Below, in pieces: positions 4,018 to 49,615 of a stretch of 64,000 nt of DNA (position 1 is its first letter; each line of letters opens with the position of its first letter). This DNA is from Streptococcus pyogenes (GTDB lineage Bacteria; Bacillota; Bacilli; Lactobacillales; Streptococcaceae). The position numbers and the translations under genes were made by a program. Under the pieces are notes generated by a model. That model saw only the letters and a program-made list of their open reading frames with translations, did no database searches and had not been told where the DNA came from. The stretch spans positions 496,001-560,000 of the forward strand of contig NZ_LN831034.1 in NCBI RefSeq assembly GCF_002055535.1. Direction: 5' to 3'.

Positions 4018-4131
4018 ATCAAGGGAGTAGCAGACGGCTAGCCGTGATTGTATCGTCAATACGGAATTTCGGTTTCCGGTACAATCTTAAACAGCGAGAC
4101 TTGTTTAAGAAAAATAAACAGGTCTTTTTAT
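4018..4131 (+). promoter_or_regulatory. yybP-ykoY (Mn2+) riboswitch with intrinsic terminator
   Basis: The leader has the hallmark AAGGGAGTAGC ... GGCTAGCC and GTCAATACGG segments of the yybP-ykoY class, which bind Mn2+ with their conserved loops. It is followed by a terminator hairpin (4097-4107 pairs with 4115-4125, one G-U, then TTTTTA). The arrangement fits a transcriptional ON switch: Mn2+ stabilises the aptamer and prevents terminator formation. The gene it controls is a P-type ATPase, as for the pneumococcal Mn2+/Ca2+ exporter MgtA. Confidence 0.8.
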
Positions 4132-35008: not shown

Positions 35009-35133
35009 TGTTTTTTACCTCATTTTCTGTTAAAATAGGTATAGTAAAGAGACCTACGGCAAAGCAGGTTTTTACTATACTAGATTCGCCTCACGCTCAG
35101 AGTCGCCAAACTTTGAGAGCGTGGGGTTTTTTT
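35008..35133 (+). ncRNA. Candidate phage small RNA, divergent from the recombinase
   Basis: Rightward TTGTTT (35008-35013), 17-bp spacer, TAAAAT (35031-35036). Then a long hairpin (GTATAGTAAA 35039-35048 with TTTACTATAC 35071-35080, plus inner ACCT/AGGT), then a terminator (CTCACGCTC 35090-35098 with GAGCGTGGG 35117-35125, then seven T's). Predicted RNA is about 90 nt (35043-35133) with no ORF. It points away from the recombinase and ends against the convergent zinc-ribbon gene. Confidence 0.45.
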
Positions 35134-45963: not shown

Positions 45964-46598
45964 TGCTAACTACAAATCAAATACACAAACTGCTGGGAGT
46001 AAAAGAAGTCTACAAAGCGCCTGACACGTTGATAAAAATAATTTTAGACAAGGAAAAGCGCGAGGACTTATTCAGACAGTTTTTGAAATATGAAACAGAT
46101 GTATCTTACGACTGGTTTATGCAATATTTTGAGGAAGAACAAGCTGACCGCAAAAATAAAAAGCAAGACTTTACTCCGCTAAGTGTATCTAAGTTACTGA
46201 CTGGATTGGTAAGCGGGCACACATACCATGAGAGTGCAGTAGGCACAGGAGGAATCCTCATACAAGCATGGCAAAGACATAGGATATCATCAAATCCTTT
46301 TACCTATAAACCAAGCGATTATTGGTATCAAGTAGAGGAGTTATCTGATAGAGCATTACCGTTTTTACTCTTTAATATGTCTATAAGAGGGATAAATGGT
46401 GTGGTGGTGCATGGCGACTCTTTAACAAGACAAGTTAAAAACATTTATTTTTTGCAAAATACAAAAGACGACATGCTGAGTTTTAGTGATATTAACGTTA
46501 TGCCAAGGACTCAAGATATTGAGCGAGAATTTAATGTCAAAGAGTGGATTGGTGATGGGATAGAACACATTGAAAATCCACTAATTGAATGGATATAA
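45963..46598 (+). CDS. N6-adenine methyltransferase-fold protein lacking the (N/D)PPY motif
   Basis: 211 residues. KKQDFTPLSVSKLL and HESAVGTGGILIQAWQRH are the N-terminal and SAM-binding motifs of HsdM/N6-Mtase proteins, followed by QVEELSDRALPFLLFNMSIRG. The expected NPPF/DPPY catalytic motif is absent; the C-terminal 70 residues (FSDINVMPRTQDIEREFN) look conserved for another purpose. It may bind SAM or restriction-modification partners, but catalysis is doubtful. Confidence 0.65.
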   Translation: MLTTNQIHKLLGVKEVYKAPDTLIKIILDKEKREDLFRQFLKYETDVSYDWFMQYFEEEQADRKNKKQDFTPLSVSKLLTGLVSGHTYHESAVGTGGILIQAWQRHRISSNPFTYKPSDYWYQVEELSDRALPFLLFNMSIRGINGVVVHGDSLTRQVKNIYFLQNTKDDMLSFSDINVMPRTQDIEREFNVKEWIGDGIEHIENPLIEWI

Positions 46599-46638
46599 CC
46601 AATAACGGTATCACGCACGTTCGACTCGTGCGGTTGGT
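46598..46638 (+). ncRNA. tRNA-like minihelix 1 (acceptor/T-arm only)
   Basis: Acceptor-like ACCAAT (46598-46603) pairs with GTTGGT (46633-46638, one G-U). The T-arm is CGCACG (46614-46619), loop TTCGACT, CGTGCG (46627-46632). Stacked 6+6 bp equals the 12 bp of a tRNA top half. Linker AACGGTATCA replaces the D and anticodon arms. No CCA. Confidence 0.45.
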
Positions 46639-46870
46639 ATTGACCGAAATTGAAAAATAGAAACGAGGACCTCCTTACACCAAAACAAAATCTAACGCTG
46701 GTTATCGGTCACTGGCTATTATTTAAGGTGCTAATACTGACATCGTACGCCTGTGTCAAAATAAAAAAAGGAAGAGAGGGCTTTTCTCCACAAAACAAAA
46801 AGACGTCCACACGGAACGCCCCCTTGGTTAAATTTAAGCTTAAATAAATTATACCATATTGGGGGCTTTC
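46599..46870. other. Intergenic region between methylase-fold gene and arpU
   Basis: Holds minihelix 1, then AT-rich DNA. A TTG-initiated 65-codon frame (46650-46847) is possible but has no RBS or domain. GCCCCC (46819-46824 region) can pair with GGGGGC just before arpU, which would mask the arpU RBS. Confidence 0.35.
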
Positions 46871-47311
46871 ATGACGTTTTTTCCTGAGATTGATATCCAA
46901 AAAACAAAATCCAATGCCAAGCGTAAATTGAGAGAGTATCCACGCTGGCGAAGGATAGCTAATGACGTAGATACTCAAAAAGTTACAGCTACTTACTCAT
47001 TTGAGCCAAGACAACCGCATGGAGTTCCTAGCAAACCAGTTGAGAGACTAGCGCTAAATCGTGTGTCAGCAGAACAAGAGCTGGATGCGATTGAGAGAGC
47101 AGTCAACGGGATATTTGATCCAGAGTATAGATTGATACTGATTGACAAGTATTTGCTCACATATCCAAAGACTGATTGTGATATTTATACAAAACTTGGT
47201 TATGAAAAAAGCCAGTATTACAACATGCTAGATAATGCTTTATTGTCGTTCTCAGAGCTATATAAAGAGGGAATGTTGCTTGTCGAGAAATTGGAAAAAA
47301 GCTGGAATTAA
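46871..47311 (+). CDS. arpU: ArpU-family late transcription regulator
   Basis: 146 residues from MTFFPEIDIQKTKSNAKRKL. The family (ArpU/RinA-like) has a C-terminal sigma-like helix-turn-helix (LLTYPKTDCDIYTKLGYEKSQ split over 160-215 bp before the end). It activates late promoters for packaging and structural genes. Its place directly before the late block fits. An upstream TTG (46859) is a possible alternative start. Confidence 0.8.
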   Translation: MTFFPEIDIQKTKSNAKRKLREYPRWRRIANDVDTQKVTATYSFEPRQPHGVPSKPVERLALNRVSAEQELDAIERAVNGIFDPEYRLILIDKYLLTYPKTDCDIYTKLGYEKSQYYNMLDNALLSFSELYKEGMLLVEKLEKSWN

Positions 47312-47455
47312 TATGGAATAATTATGTACTTTATATATAATTATTCATGTTATTATAGTACTATCAAAATAACAAGAAGAGATAACCTTTTAACCACTGG
47401 CTATTCATTTAGTCGCCAACTTTAACTACGATCAAACTTGTTATTTTATGGTATG

Positions 47456-47487
47456 TGGGACGTGCAGGTTCGAATCCTGCCGTCTCA
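47456..47487 (+). ncRNA. tRNA-like minihelix 2
   Basis: TGGGACG (47456-47462) pairs with CGTCTCA (47481-47487, one G-U). A single T joins it to GCAGG, loop TTCGAAT, CCTGC (47464-47480). It has 7+5 bp and a perfect T-loop, and the 3' flank is ATCA. It has no D or anticodon arm. Confidence 0.5.
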
Positions 47488-47511
47488 ATCAGCGCCCAGA
47501 AGAGGCGCGAC

Positions 47512-47554
47512 CCAGTATCCCGAAAGGCAGTCACGCACTGATATACTGGTTTTT
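47512..47554 (+). terminator. Terminator inside the structured block
   Basis: CCAGTAT (47512-47518) pairs with ATACTGG (47543-47549). An inner CAGT/ACTG helix lies between, and TTTTT follows. It would end an RNA containing minihelix 2. Confidence 0.6.
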
Positions 47555-47704
47555 ACTTGGTTGATAGTCATATTCCTACCAATGACGATTGGTAAAAAAG
47601 ATACATAGATCGGCTGTATAGTCTACGTGTACGTATTCACAACAGATTGACTCATTTGATTAACCACAAGTAAAACAAGGGTCGCAACCTTGCTTGTGGT
47701 TAGT

Positions 47705-47745
47705 AGGGACAACGGTTGTAAGTCGGTTCGATTCCGACTGTTCCT
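47705..47745 (+). ncRNA. tRNA-like minihelix 3
   Basis: AGGGACA (47705-47711) pairs with TGTTCCT (47739-47745, one G-U). The T-arm is GTCGG, loop TTCGATT, CCGAC (47722-47738). It has exactly 7+5 bp. The 10-nt linker ACGGTTGTAA resembles the linker of minihelix 1. Confidence 0.5.
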
Positions 47746-47749
47746 GTTT

Positions 47750-47811
47750 GATAAATAGAAGTGTCCCAGAATGGGCTAGGCAATAGGCTTAGCATTCATT
47801 TGCTATTTATC
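47750..47811 (+). ncRNA. Three-way-junction RNA motif
   Basis: P1 GATAAATAG (47750-47758) pairs with CTATTTATC (47803-47811). Inside are CCCA-GAA-TGGG (47765-47775) and CTAGGC/GCTTAG (47776-47792, one G-U), with joining strands of 6, 0 and 10 nt. The layout is riboswitch-like, but I match it to no known class. Confidence 0.4.
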
Positions 47812-47826
47812 TATGGCTAACCAATT

Positions 47827-47853
47827 AGTCATCACATTGTGGTGGCTTTTTAT
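47827..47853 (+). terminator. Terminator before the methylase gene
   Basis: AGTCATCAC, ATT loop, GTGGTGGCT (two G-U), then TTTTT. It is nearly the same sequence as the terminator after the methylase gene. Confidence 0.65.
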
Positions 47854-47865
47854 TGTGGGGTGAAA

Positions 47866-48777
47866 ATGCTTAAATTAGACGAAAAGAAAATACGAAAAGG
47901 GAAACCAGTTGGACTTCCGTATCAAGGTAGTAAAAAGAAAATTAGTAAGAAAATAGTCGAAATTATTAAACAAAACTTTGATGCAGATAAACCCATATAC
48001 GACGTTTTCGGCGGAGGCGGAGCGATTACTGCTGAGTGTGTGCTAAATGGTTTAGAAGTGCATTATAACGACTTAGACAACGATATAACAGATATGTTTC
48101 AGCGTGTGATTAGTCAAGATAGAGAATGGATAAAAACACTCATTATCAGTCGTGATGAATTTAACAAAATTAGGCAAAAAGAACCTAAGTCAGTTGATGA
48201 TAATTTAAAATTGTTAGTAAATAGTTTTGGGAATGAATTAAGCAGTTATTTATACGGCGCAGACTGGTCTGATACGAAGTATGACTTAGCGGTTGAAATA
48301 ATTAATAAGCACGATGTGTTTAGCGGGTACAAACAAACCGAAACGTATAAAAAAGCTGACAAGCCTTACGATGAAGGAGAGCTTGAAAAAAATAAAAAAC
48401 TAACACAGTTAGAACAGTTACAACAGTTAGGACGGTTACAACAGTTAGAACAGTTACAACAGTTAGGACGGTTACAACAGTTAGAACCAACAAATTATAG
48501 TTACGAAGCATTTTCAGATATTGAAGGCGCTATTTTTTATCTTGATCCTCCATACGAAAATACCACGCAAAAAAGTTATAAAGGTGATTTTAACAGTCAA
48601 GCATTTTATGATTGGGCGTTTGGGATGTCTAAAAACAACATTGTTTTAATTTCTAGTTACGATATATCAGATGAACGTTTTGAATGCGTATATGAGTTTA
48701 AGACTGCAAGAAGCACCATGCAAGGTGGCGGAGCGGGTAAGAGAACTGAAAAACTGTTTATGGCAGTCATCACATAG
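47866..48777 (+). CDS. D12-class N6-adenine DNA methyltransferase with minisatellite
   Basis: 303 residues from MLKLDEKKIRKGKPVGLPYQ (GGGGTGA upstream). N-terminal FGGGGAITAECVLNG is the SAM motif, with the catalytic YLDPPYENTTQKSY about residue 226, the Dam/DpnM arrangement. Between them, in the target-recognition region (residues about 181-207), lie nine in-frame 9-bp units coding Gln/Arg-Leu-Glu/Gln/Gly. The gene is flanked by near-identical terminators, like a self-contained cassette. It may protect phage DNA from restriction. Sequence specificity (such as GATC) is not provable here. Confidence 0.85.
   Translation: MLKLDEKKIRKGKPVGLPYQGSKKKISKKIVEIIKQNFDADKPIYDVFGGGGAITAECVLNGLEVHYNDLDNDITDMFQRVISQDREWIKTLIISRDEFNKIRQKEPKSVDDNLKLLVNSFGNELSSYLYGADWSDTKYDLAVEIINKHDVFSGYKQTETYKKADKPYDEGELEKNKKLTQLEQLQQLGRLQQLEQLQQLGRLQQLEPTNYSYEAFSDIEGAIFYLDPPYENTTQKSYKGDFNSQAFYDWAFGMSKNNIVLISSYDISDERFECVYEFKTARSTMQGGGAGKRTEKLFMAVIT
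48406..48486 (+). repeat. 9-bp coding minisatellite in the methylase gene
   Basis: Nine 9-bp units (CAGTTAGAA, CAGTTACAA, CAGTTAGGA, CGGTTACAA, repeated in order, plus one CAGTTAGAA). This gives two copies of a 36-bp higher unit. Copy-number change stays in frame. Confidence 0.9.
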
Positions 48778-48902: not shown

Positions 48903-49280
48903 TTATGCTTGTAATTTTAATTCAAGCGCTTCAGTAAGAACTTGAGAAAAGTTGAGGTTTTTATCTTCTGCTGCGTCGTTTAACCATTCAGGGATAGTCA
49001 CGTTTTTGCGGACTTTTTTGGAGTGATATTTTTTCATATAGGCAACCATATCGATGCCAATTAAAGCAATGTCGGAATCAGGATACTGTTCTTTTAAATC
49101 AGAAACGGCGCTAGCCTTTGGATAGTCAGTATAGTCTTCAAGGGCAAAACCTAAGACTTCGACAGCCATTTCATAAGCCTCTTGAAAGTCTTCACCTTGA
49201 GTAATTGCTTCAGGTACATCTGGAAATGTAACCATGATATAGTCTGTGTCTTGTGTAAATGTAGCTGGATAAATTAACAT
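48903..49280 (-). CDS. hicB: HicB antitoxin
   Basis: 125 residues from MLIYPATFTQDTDYIMVTFP (GGAGG 8 bases upstream). The N-terminal partial RNase H fold (FPDVPEAITQGEDFQEAYEM) and C-terminal ribbon-helix-helix (VTIPEWLNDAAEDKNLNFSQ) are typical of HicB. It neutralises HicA and represses the module's promoter. Confidence 0.92.
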   Translation of the reverse strand: MLIYPATFTQDTDYIMVTFPDVPEAITQGEDFQEAYEMAVEVLGFALEDYTDYPKASAVSDLKEQYPDSDIALIGIDMVAYMKKYHSKKVRKNVTIPEWLNDAAEDKNLNFSQVLTEALELKLQA

Positions 49281-49331
49281 AATGATCCTCCTTTGATTAC
49301 TGTGAGATAAGCACACCATCTGGCAAGCGGA

Positions 49332-49517
49332 TTATTTTAAACCCGCCTGCTTTAGAATGGTATCTTCAAGACCTTTTCCGAGGTCTTTATTGTGCATTGG
49401 AACAATGGTTTGATGTCCGTTATTGTCTCGGAATTTTTTGTGACTTCCGTTTTGACTGACTTCGTAGAACCCATTCTTTTTTAGCAGTTTTATCATCTGC
49501 TTTGGGGTCATTGGCAT
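49332..49517 (-). CDS. hicA: HicA mRNA-interferase toxin
   Basis: 61 residues from MPMTPKQMIKLLKKNGFYEV, with the dsRBD-like fold and catalytic His in QNGSHKKFRDNNG, then TIVPMHNKDLGKGLEDTILK. HicA cleaves mRNA. I start at 49515-49517, where GAGGT lies upstream; longer readings include the promoter. Toxin precedes antitoxin, the usual hicAB order. Confidence 0.92.
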   Translation of the reverse strand: MPMTPKQMIKLLKKNGFYEVSQNGSHKKFRDNNGHQTIVPMHNKDLGKGLEDTILKQAGLK

Positions 49518-49544
49518 ATTGCTTACCTCACTTTCTATACTTAT

Positions 49545-49573
49545 ATTATACACATAAACAATGTAGATGTCAA
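49545..49573 (-). promoter_or_regulatory. hicAB promoter
   Basis: On the minus strand TTGACA (49568-49573), 17-bp spacer, TATAAT (49545-49550): a consensus promoter independent of the late phage transcript. Confidence 0.8.
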
Positions 49574-49615
49574 TGCAAAATACGCATAAAATACGCAAAA
49601 ATTAGGAGATAACAA

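Follow-up and report, generated by a model that had tools for sequence, protein, structure and literature searches.

The arpU locus and its three tRNA top halves

The window analysed here is the whole 64,000-nucleotide (nt) stretch of the Streptococcus pyogenes contig NZ_LN831034.1, from a host genome of 1.91 Mb, and it contains a prophage. Our subject is a set of three small hairpins in this prophage that resemble the acceptor/T half, or top half, of transfer RNA (tRNA). They lie around arpU, the gene of an ArpU-family late transcription regulator; we call them marks, and the noncoding RNAs that they border are called cargo. A noncoding stretch of about 0.5 kb separates arpU from the next gene, which encodes a DNA methyltransferase and is followed by HNH endonuclease and terminase genes. 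This stretch holds two of the three elements (47456-47487 and 47705-47745). The features of the locus are the following, with fold z scores where they were obtained.

46598..46638, + strand: mark 0, tRNA top-half minihelix with a 6-bp acceptor-like stem, the 10-nt linker AACGGTATCA, a 6-bp T-stem and the loop TTCGACT
46871..47311, + strand: ArpU-family late transcription regulator gene (TIGR01637, 137.5 bits; phrog_248)
47330..47359, + strand: promoter-like box TTTATA-18-TATAGT, a consensus match only
47362..47447, + strand: leader hairpin TAACAAG/CTTGTTA, fold z -3.44, putative 5' end of the noncoding transcript
47456..47487, + strand: mark 1, minimal tRNA top half of 7 bp, a 1-nt linker and 5 bp, loop TTCGAAT
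47488..47704, + strand: cargo noncoding RNA of 217 nt between marks 1 and 2, fold z -2.04
47655..47704, + strand: hairpin at the cargo 3' end, loop GTCGCAA, fold z -4.63 (for 47655-47705)
47705..47745, + strand: mark 2, tRNA top-half minihelix of 6+6 bp (or 7+5), with the 10-nt linker AACGGTTGTA and the loop TTCGATT
47746..47815, + strand: second cargo, a small noncoding RNA with the core TCCCAGAATGGG(N)TAGGCA(N)TAGGCTTAG, fold z -3.24
47827..47852, + strand: intrinsic terminator-like hairpin with T-run, end of the noncoding unit, 5' of the next gene

Each mark totals 12 bp. Defining a T-arm as a TTCRANY loop on 5 bp, the window holds three on the + strand, all of them the marks, and one on the - strand. 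T-arms with an acceptor strand within 20 nt number three per 64 kb on both strands together; in 300 dinucleotide shuffles their mean number was 0.077 and no shuffle had more than 2. The first-pass annotation had described three such top halves, with their T-loops and 12 bp each, and they stand where it placed them. It had also called the two 10-nt linkers alike at their start; in the 6+6 partition both AACGGTATCA and AACGGTTGTA indeed begin with AACGGT, although the second had been quoted one base shifted. That the elements border a slot of structured noncoding RNAs, occupied in some relatives by GOLLD, had been missed.

Neither ARAGORN nor Rfam reports a tRNA in the window, no cloverleaf with an anticodon arm was found, and a full tRNA or transfer-messenger RNA (tmRNA) was rejected on these searches. 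At a lax Rfam threshold only mark 1 matches, as the acceptor/T end of tmRNA (18.2 bits, E 5.7e-5); the gathering score of tmRNA is 47 and 328 model positions are absent, so mark 1 is not a member of RF00023. Mark 1 is also the only one of the three whose fold stands out (z -3.90). Host tRNA top halves agree with the three marks at 18, 25 and 24 of 31 positions at best, and because this likeness is modest we name no host parent. The first base of mark 0 is also the final one of the stop codon of a DNA methyltransferase gene, which precedes the arpU leader; the pattern of this mark is matched by nine stretches in viral contigs, and it has a covarying relative in one related locus (L026).

Conservation of the top half in related loci

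Related loci, numbered with the letter L, are loci with an arpU relative together with phage records. They include many near copies and a few places fetched twice, and distinct elements (79) were also counted. An arpU gene is present in 120 loci, 113 of which extend at least 900 nt past its stop codon. At least one T-arm occurs in 90 of these 113 and a T-arm with a findable acceptor strand in 83, distributed by arpU identity as 71 of 79 loci at or above about 74%, 4 of 12 at 58-65% and 8 of 22 below. Downstream of arpU the transcribed strand carries 226 T-arms and the other strand none; upstream the numbers are 4 and 0. In the same S. pyogenes genome the locus recurs at 1084064-1084363 and 1387920-1388305, with different marks or a different cargo RNA.

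Among 94 distinct T-arm contexts, an acceptor strand is found within 20 nt in 43 (control mean 9), within 60 nt in 64 (26) and within 100 nt in 86 (40). When the acceptor 3' strand is moved by a single base, 35 (+1) or 24 (-1) remain within 20 nt, and other shifts leave 16-18. The chance background grows with linker length, and individual long-linker assignments are therefore uncertain. A stronger test than these counts is the alignment of short-linker elements with its slid-register control. It comprises 17 distinct elements with linkers of 10-12 nt, read as 6+6 bp (204 cells). In this set 99.5% of the cells are paired, and two-sided changes occur in 51 cells and at 10 of the 12 pairs. The covariation score of 0.807 compares with 0.245 for shuffles, no slid register exceeds 0.167, and the pair-count and type-count measures are each reached by 2 of 500 shuffles; a 7+5-bp version gives 95.1% paired and a score of 0.740. 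The sequences had been selected for an acceptor strand, which favours pairing, but such selection alone does not make matching two-sided changes at one register. The compensatory changes that the first-pass annotation had named as its check are thus abundant.

The part between the acceptor 5' strand and the T-stem varies freely. Linkers range from 1 to 94 nt over the 79 distinct marks, the long ones being less certain, with 29 marks at 0-20 nt, 4 at 21-37 nt, 17 at 38-62 nt and 29 at 63 nt or more. In the first slot after arpU, relatives carry the same top half with linkers of 1, 6, 12, 15 and 47 nt. The 47-nt form is a tRNA by Rfam, with 43.9 bits in three loci, and ARAGORN mostly assigns it no amino acid. 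The tRNAs that ARAGORN reports at the locus in relatives are specific for Ser, His, Lys, Arg and, in one case, Thr; Rfam tRNA matches exceed the gathering score in 12 of the 20 loci given. Homology to tRNA is suggested for mark 1 only, which shares its slot and top half with the 47-nt form; marks 0 and 2 have no scored tRNA relative. In the first slot of L037, L054 and L072, the 47-nt form has a nearer second acceptor candidate with a 3-nt linker (TGGAACG or TGAAACG), and the two folds could compete. In the pneumococcal phage IPP9 (L124), a 3-nt-linker form is the best found.

In the 7+5 reading, 11 of 12 distinct linkers of 10-12 nt have GG at positions 3-4. This may be what is left of the GG of a D-loop, which docks on the T-loop, although these linkers form only a few related groups. 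Downstream of arpU in L023/L024, L030/L031, L042 and L056 there are chimeras consisting of the 5' half of one mark and the 3' half of another. They join exactly at the T-loop, the intervening RNA is lost and so is the pairing. Such joints make the shared T-loop sequence a site of recombination. Descent from phage tRNAs is likely for the marks, with mark 1 as the best case.

Cargo RNAs and their borders

The 217-nt cargo matched no Rfam family. It matches 35 of 50,697 phage records, all from Streptococcus, with at least 80% coverage in only 6. Its 3' GTCGCAA hairpin has a fixed relation to the mark that follows: in 17 of 21 distinct contexts a mark starts exactly 13 nt past the hairpin core. 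These marks have linkers of 10, 12, 13 or 83 nt and several acceptor sequences.

The core RNA at 47746-47815 occurs in 52 stretches of viral contigs and, by similarity over a 106-nt stretch or part of it, in 77 phage records. Many Streptococcus phages have it; L124, L125 and L108 are among the loci concerned. There is no Rfam match to it in the window and none at the gathering level in L124 and L125. Its closing stem is fully paired in nine sequences of two main types (100% of pairs), three of six pairs showing two-sided changes; the two-sided-pair measure is reached by 124 of 500 shuffles and the pair-type measure by all 500, and the covariation of this stem is modest.

In 27 of 28 distinct contexts the core is preceded, at a distance of 13, 14 or 17 nt, by the acceptor 3' end of a T-arm mark; the single miss (L174) has mismatched halves. 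In one of the 27 marks no 5' acceptor strand was found. The 27 represent 15 combinations of acceptor, T-stem and linker. At -17 (9 contexts) they are minihelices with linkers of 10-13 nt or forms with 69-92 nt; at -13/-14 (18 contexts) the linkers measure 30-70 nt and include a tRNA-Ser called by ARAGORN in L125. The difference between the two distances fits the longer closing stem of the first type of core RNA.

GOLLD (RF02032) is present at the locus of relatives, in 4 of 20 loci (L006, L039, L054 and L065) and in 1 of 20 in a second set. In the four loci the Rfam match covers about 376 nt and ends about 10 nt before a tRNA-Ser. The cargo between marks is 700-701 nt long in seven loci, and its 3' part is GOLLD by Rfam in the four tested. 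The remaining 5' part of about 320 nt falls outside the Rfam model, and we take it as the variable 5' region of GOLLD. Papers are cited here from excerpts, in which the GOLLD 5' region is described as less conserved (PMC12286853). The cleanest swap concerns this GOLLD-type cargo of 700-701 nt, which follows a first mark with either a 1-nt or a 47-nt linker. In IPP9 GOLLD is also present, with another RNA between it and the first mark. When a 23-nt GOLLD motif is used as the anchor, all 30 distinct contexts have a T-arm in the 800 nt downstream (in one without an acceptor). This T-arm belongs to a tRNA-length form, an oversize form or a 3-nt-linker hairpin. On the upstream side a T-arm lies within 1.2 kb in 20 of the 30. 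GOLLD was rejected as the window's own cargo, as the window has no RF02032 match.

GOLLD assembles as a 14-mer nanocage and is more strongly expressed during lysis; it is found near tRNAs, which sometimes lie in its linker region (PMC12286853). Mycobacterial GOLLD is accompanied by a tRNA array and a pseudo-tRNA (PMC6582537), and GOLLD occurs in S. agalactiae genomes (PMC6064168). The excerpts of these three papers make no mention of shortened tRNA top halves that mark borders.

Outside the noncoding unit, Pfam identifies a HicA/HicB toxin-antitoxin pair on the - strand at 48903-49598, between the methyltransferase and HNH genes. The methyltransferase gene contains a 36-bp in-frame repeat in 2.3 copies, built of 9-bp units, at 48405-48487, which has a different form in the L042 relative. 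Rfam also places three Streptococcus small RNAs in the window: SSRC8_2 (1898-2164), SSRC10 (4018-4131) and Spy779816 (35044-35132).

A predicted processing role and its alternatives

The architecture suggests a transcription unit whose primary transcript would start downstream of arpU and run to the terminator near 47847. Of 121 loci examined, 70 share the TATAGT box together with the sequence that follows; the promoter consensus as such is no commoner than in shuffles (3 found, mean 4.0). In these 70 loci the leader hairpin has the form TAACAAG/CTTGTTA in 22, TAGCAAG/CTTGCTA in 37 and the G-U form TAGCAAG/CTTGTTA in 11. Terminator-like sites of all kinds number 8 between 46500 and 48000, against a shuffle mean of 1.0, and a loose terminator pattern lies downstream in 84 of 113 loci, a figure that comes without a chance rate.

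We think it probable that the marks are minimal t-elements at which host RNase P and RNase Z cut, setting phage noncoding RNAs free. RNase P would cut the 5' side of each mark, giving the 3' end of the preceding RNA, and RNase Z would cut after the discriminator base, giving the 5' end of the following RNA. Cuts at both mark ends would free 47488-47704 and the RNA from 47746, and GOLLD in some phages. Because only the top half would be needed, the D/anticodon part could become as short as 1 nt or lengthen, and a minihelix could stand in for a tRNA and vice versa. The host encodes both enzymes (RNase Z, 359 bits; RNase P RNA, 372 bits). None of the elements with T-arm and acceptor (0/131) and none of the host tRNAs examined (0/25) encodes CCA, which therefore does not separate marks from host tRNAs; since neither encodes it, both would be expected to mature by way of RNase Z. 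In bacteria, RNase P gauges the acceptor/T stack starting at the elbow and requires a T-loop or something similar, not the D-loop (PMC4919913); acceptor/T hairpins are among its substrates, and it copes with heavily shortened ones (PMC4919922).

The t-elements of plant mitochondria and Haloferax are, like the marks, tRNA-like structures at RNA borders that serve as cutting marks and not as adaptors. They fix mRNA and 5S ribosomal RNA ends, being cut by both RNase P and RNase Z; in Haloferax a t-element sets the 5' end of 5S ribosomal RNA, and flanking t-elements release the RNA between them (PMC4326828, PMC11658184). The marks have at least the acceptor/T half of such a structure, with 12 bp, a T-loop and covariation, and the fixed distances in 27/28 and 17/21 contexts place them at the sequence border of structured RNAs, mark 0 excepted. 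They differ from the t-elements of plant mitochondria and Haloferax in occurring in bacterial phages, in being reduced to a 12-bp top half with linkers of 1-15 nt, in sharing their slot with tRNA-length forms and in having phage noncoding RNAs as cargo. Their action would be like that of a t-element, and membership in that class hangs on cleavage, which is here predicted. Processing signals were one of the proposals of the first-pass annotation, and with RNase P/RNase Z geometry they are the best supported reading; the annotation's view that the elements belong to a class without a described match does not hold, since t-elements would work in the same way.

Several observations weigh against such a role. 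The minimum-energy fold of mark 0 taken alone is a different one, with linker bases in competition with the 5' acceptor strand (z -2.26); this mark has no recognised cargo, the 122 nt after it having a fold z of -0.24, and its site is rare, with 4 T-arms within 1.5 kb upstream of arpU in 113 loci. The minimum-energy fold of mark 2 is the minihelix, but its z is only -1.31 and 18 of 200 shuffles fold equally well. No T-arm is found in 23 of the 113 loci, nor within 1.5 kb of arpU in arpU loci of other genera among the 26 listed. The GTCGCAA hairpin has no mark after it in 4 of 21 contexts, and 10 of the 30 GOLLD contexts have no T-arm within 1.2 kb upstream. Some marks are broken chimeras, and the 1-nt and 3-nt forms contain no D-loop-like sequence. 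Minihelices next to the core RNA are confined to the -17 class and tRNAs of canonical length to the -13/-14 class, and the swap therefore crosses two types of this RNA. Finally, the E. coli enzyme miscuts simple hairpins more often (PMC4919922), and no RNA could be detected from the pseudo-tRNA that lies within a mycobacterial GOLLD gene (PMC6582537).

The likeliest alternative, which we nevertheless consider unlikely, is a decaying phage tRNA cluster in which deletions removed the D and anticodon arms and left functionless remains. Full or near-full tRNAs at the same locus in relatives, the lack of an amino acid assignment in most 47-nt forms reported by ARAGORN and the existence of broken chimeras would all be expected of it. 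Decay should, however, break the stems, yet in the 17 distinct sequences nearly every cell is paired and 51 carry two-sided changes; the T-loop is intact and the borders to neighbouring RNAs are fixed. The full tRNAs in relatives, named by the first-pass annotation as a finding that would count against function, do exist and support a tRNA origin of the marks, not a lack of function. On covariation, strand bias and fixed borders we rejected functionless leftovers and pure recombination joints alike, and we read the decayed tRNA cluster as the history of the marks and punctuation as their present use.

Somewhat less likely still is that transcribed minihelices act as mimics or decoys, binding EF-Tu, the CCA-adding enzyme, tRNA-modifying enzymes or tRNA-attacking defence nucleases during infection. 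The acceptor/T half is the part that such proteins read, and the GG that 11 of the 12 linkers share in position would permit a D-loop/T-loop elbow. Placement at RNA borders and the occurrence of tRNA-length and 1-nt forms in one slot are left unexplained, and this reading, also offered by the first-pass annotation, gained no positive evidence in this analysis. The rulers of tRNA include the CCA enzyme (PMC4919913). It is improbable that the marks are joints at the DNA level, with the T-loop as a short homology for module recombination and RNA structure incidental. Several chimeras do meet exactly at the T-loop with loss of the intervening RNA; they are a minority, the strand bias is 226 to 0, and recombination would not keep stems paired, whereas the stems differ widely and the pairing holds. 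Covariation refutes DNA joints as the sole cause, and recombination at repeated T-loops may be a by-product. Least probable of all is a packaging (cos) or late-regulator binding region, with the inverted repeats as DNA or leader RNA structure: the location between arpU and the HNH/terminase genes and the terminator-like site that ends the leader would suit it, but tRNA geometry with a T-loop consensus on one strand only is unexpected of a DNA site, and the content between marks varies from 3 to 701 nt.

Other known systems share parts of the architecture of these putative processing signals. The mascRNA and menRNA at the 3' ends of MALAT1 and Menbeta resemble the marks in that a tRNA-like structure is cut by RNase P to end a long noncoding RNA; they are eukaryotic, larger than the marks and have reduced D and anticodon arms. 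They are counted among non-tRNA RNase P substrates (PMC4919913). The acceptor/T domain of tmRNA likewise combines an acceptor stem with a T-arm and no anticodon arm; the marks are without a messenger part and an encoded CCA, and the lax match of mark 1 lies far below the tmRNA gathering level. C4 of P1/P7 and CI of P4 are immunity antisense RNAs, not tRNA-shaped marks between noncoding RNAs. Phage regulatory RNAs processed by RNase P offer a likeness to what we propose for the transcripts of the marks, and phage-induced RNAs are named as RNase P substrates (PMC4919922). GOLLD adjoins tRNAs and occupies the slot in relatives, although by Rfam the cargo in the window is not GOLLD. Prophage-encoded small RNA candidates exist in S. 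pyogenes (PMC2765633, PMC6431027) and are not matched to the arpU locus in these excerpts; a further study dropped its prophage candidates (PMC3675131). Titles and abstract openings in the open literature yielded no published description of minihelices at the borders of phage noncoding RNAs.

We give about even chances to the broader proposal that streptococcal phages have an interchangeable noncoding-RNA cassette slot in which tRNAs and reduced top halves are the same punctuation. GOLLD and ROOL nanocages are often near tRNAs, and the excerpts of PMC12286853 give no processing reason for this. If tRNA-like marks excise such RNAs, the association with tRNAs would be explained and their true ends would be predictable from sequence; the tRNA company of GOLLD-type nanocage RNAs would then serve RNA maturation, not translation. 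The 32-nt hairpin of mark 1 would be a natural t-element of extreme smallness, and the minimal part of tRNA needed for natural processing may be very small, with a linker of a single nucleotide. The marks would also reveal the borders of phage noncoding RNAs that are absent from Rfam.

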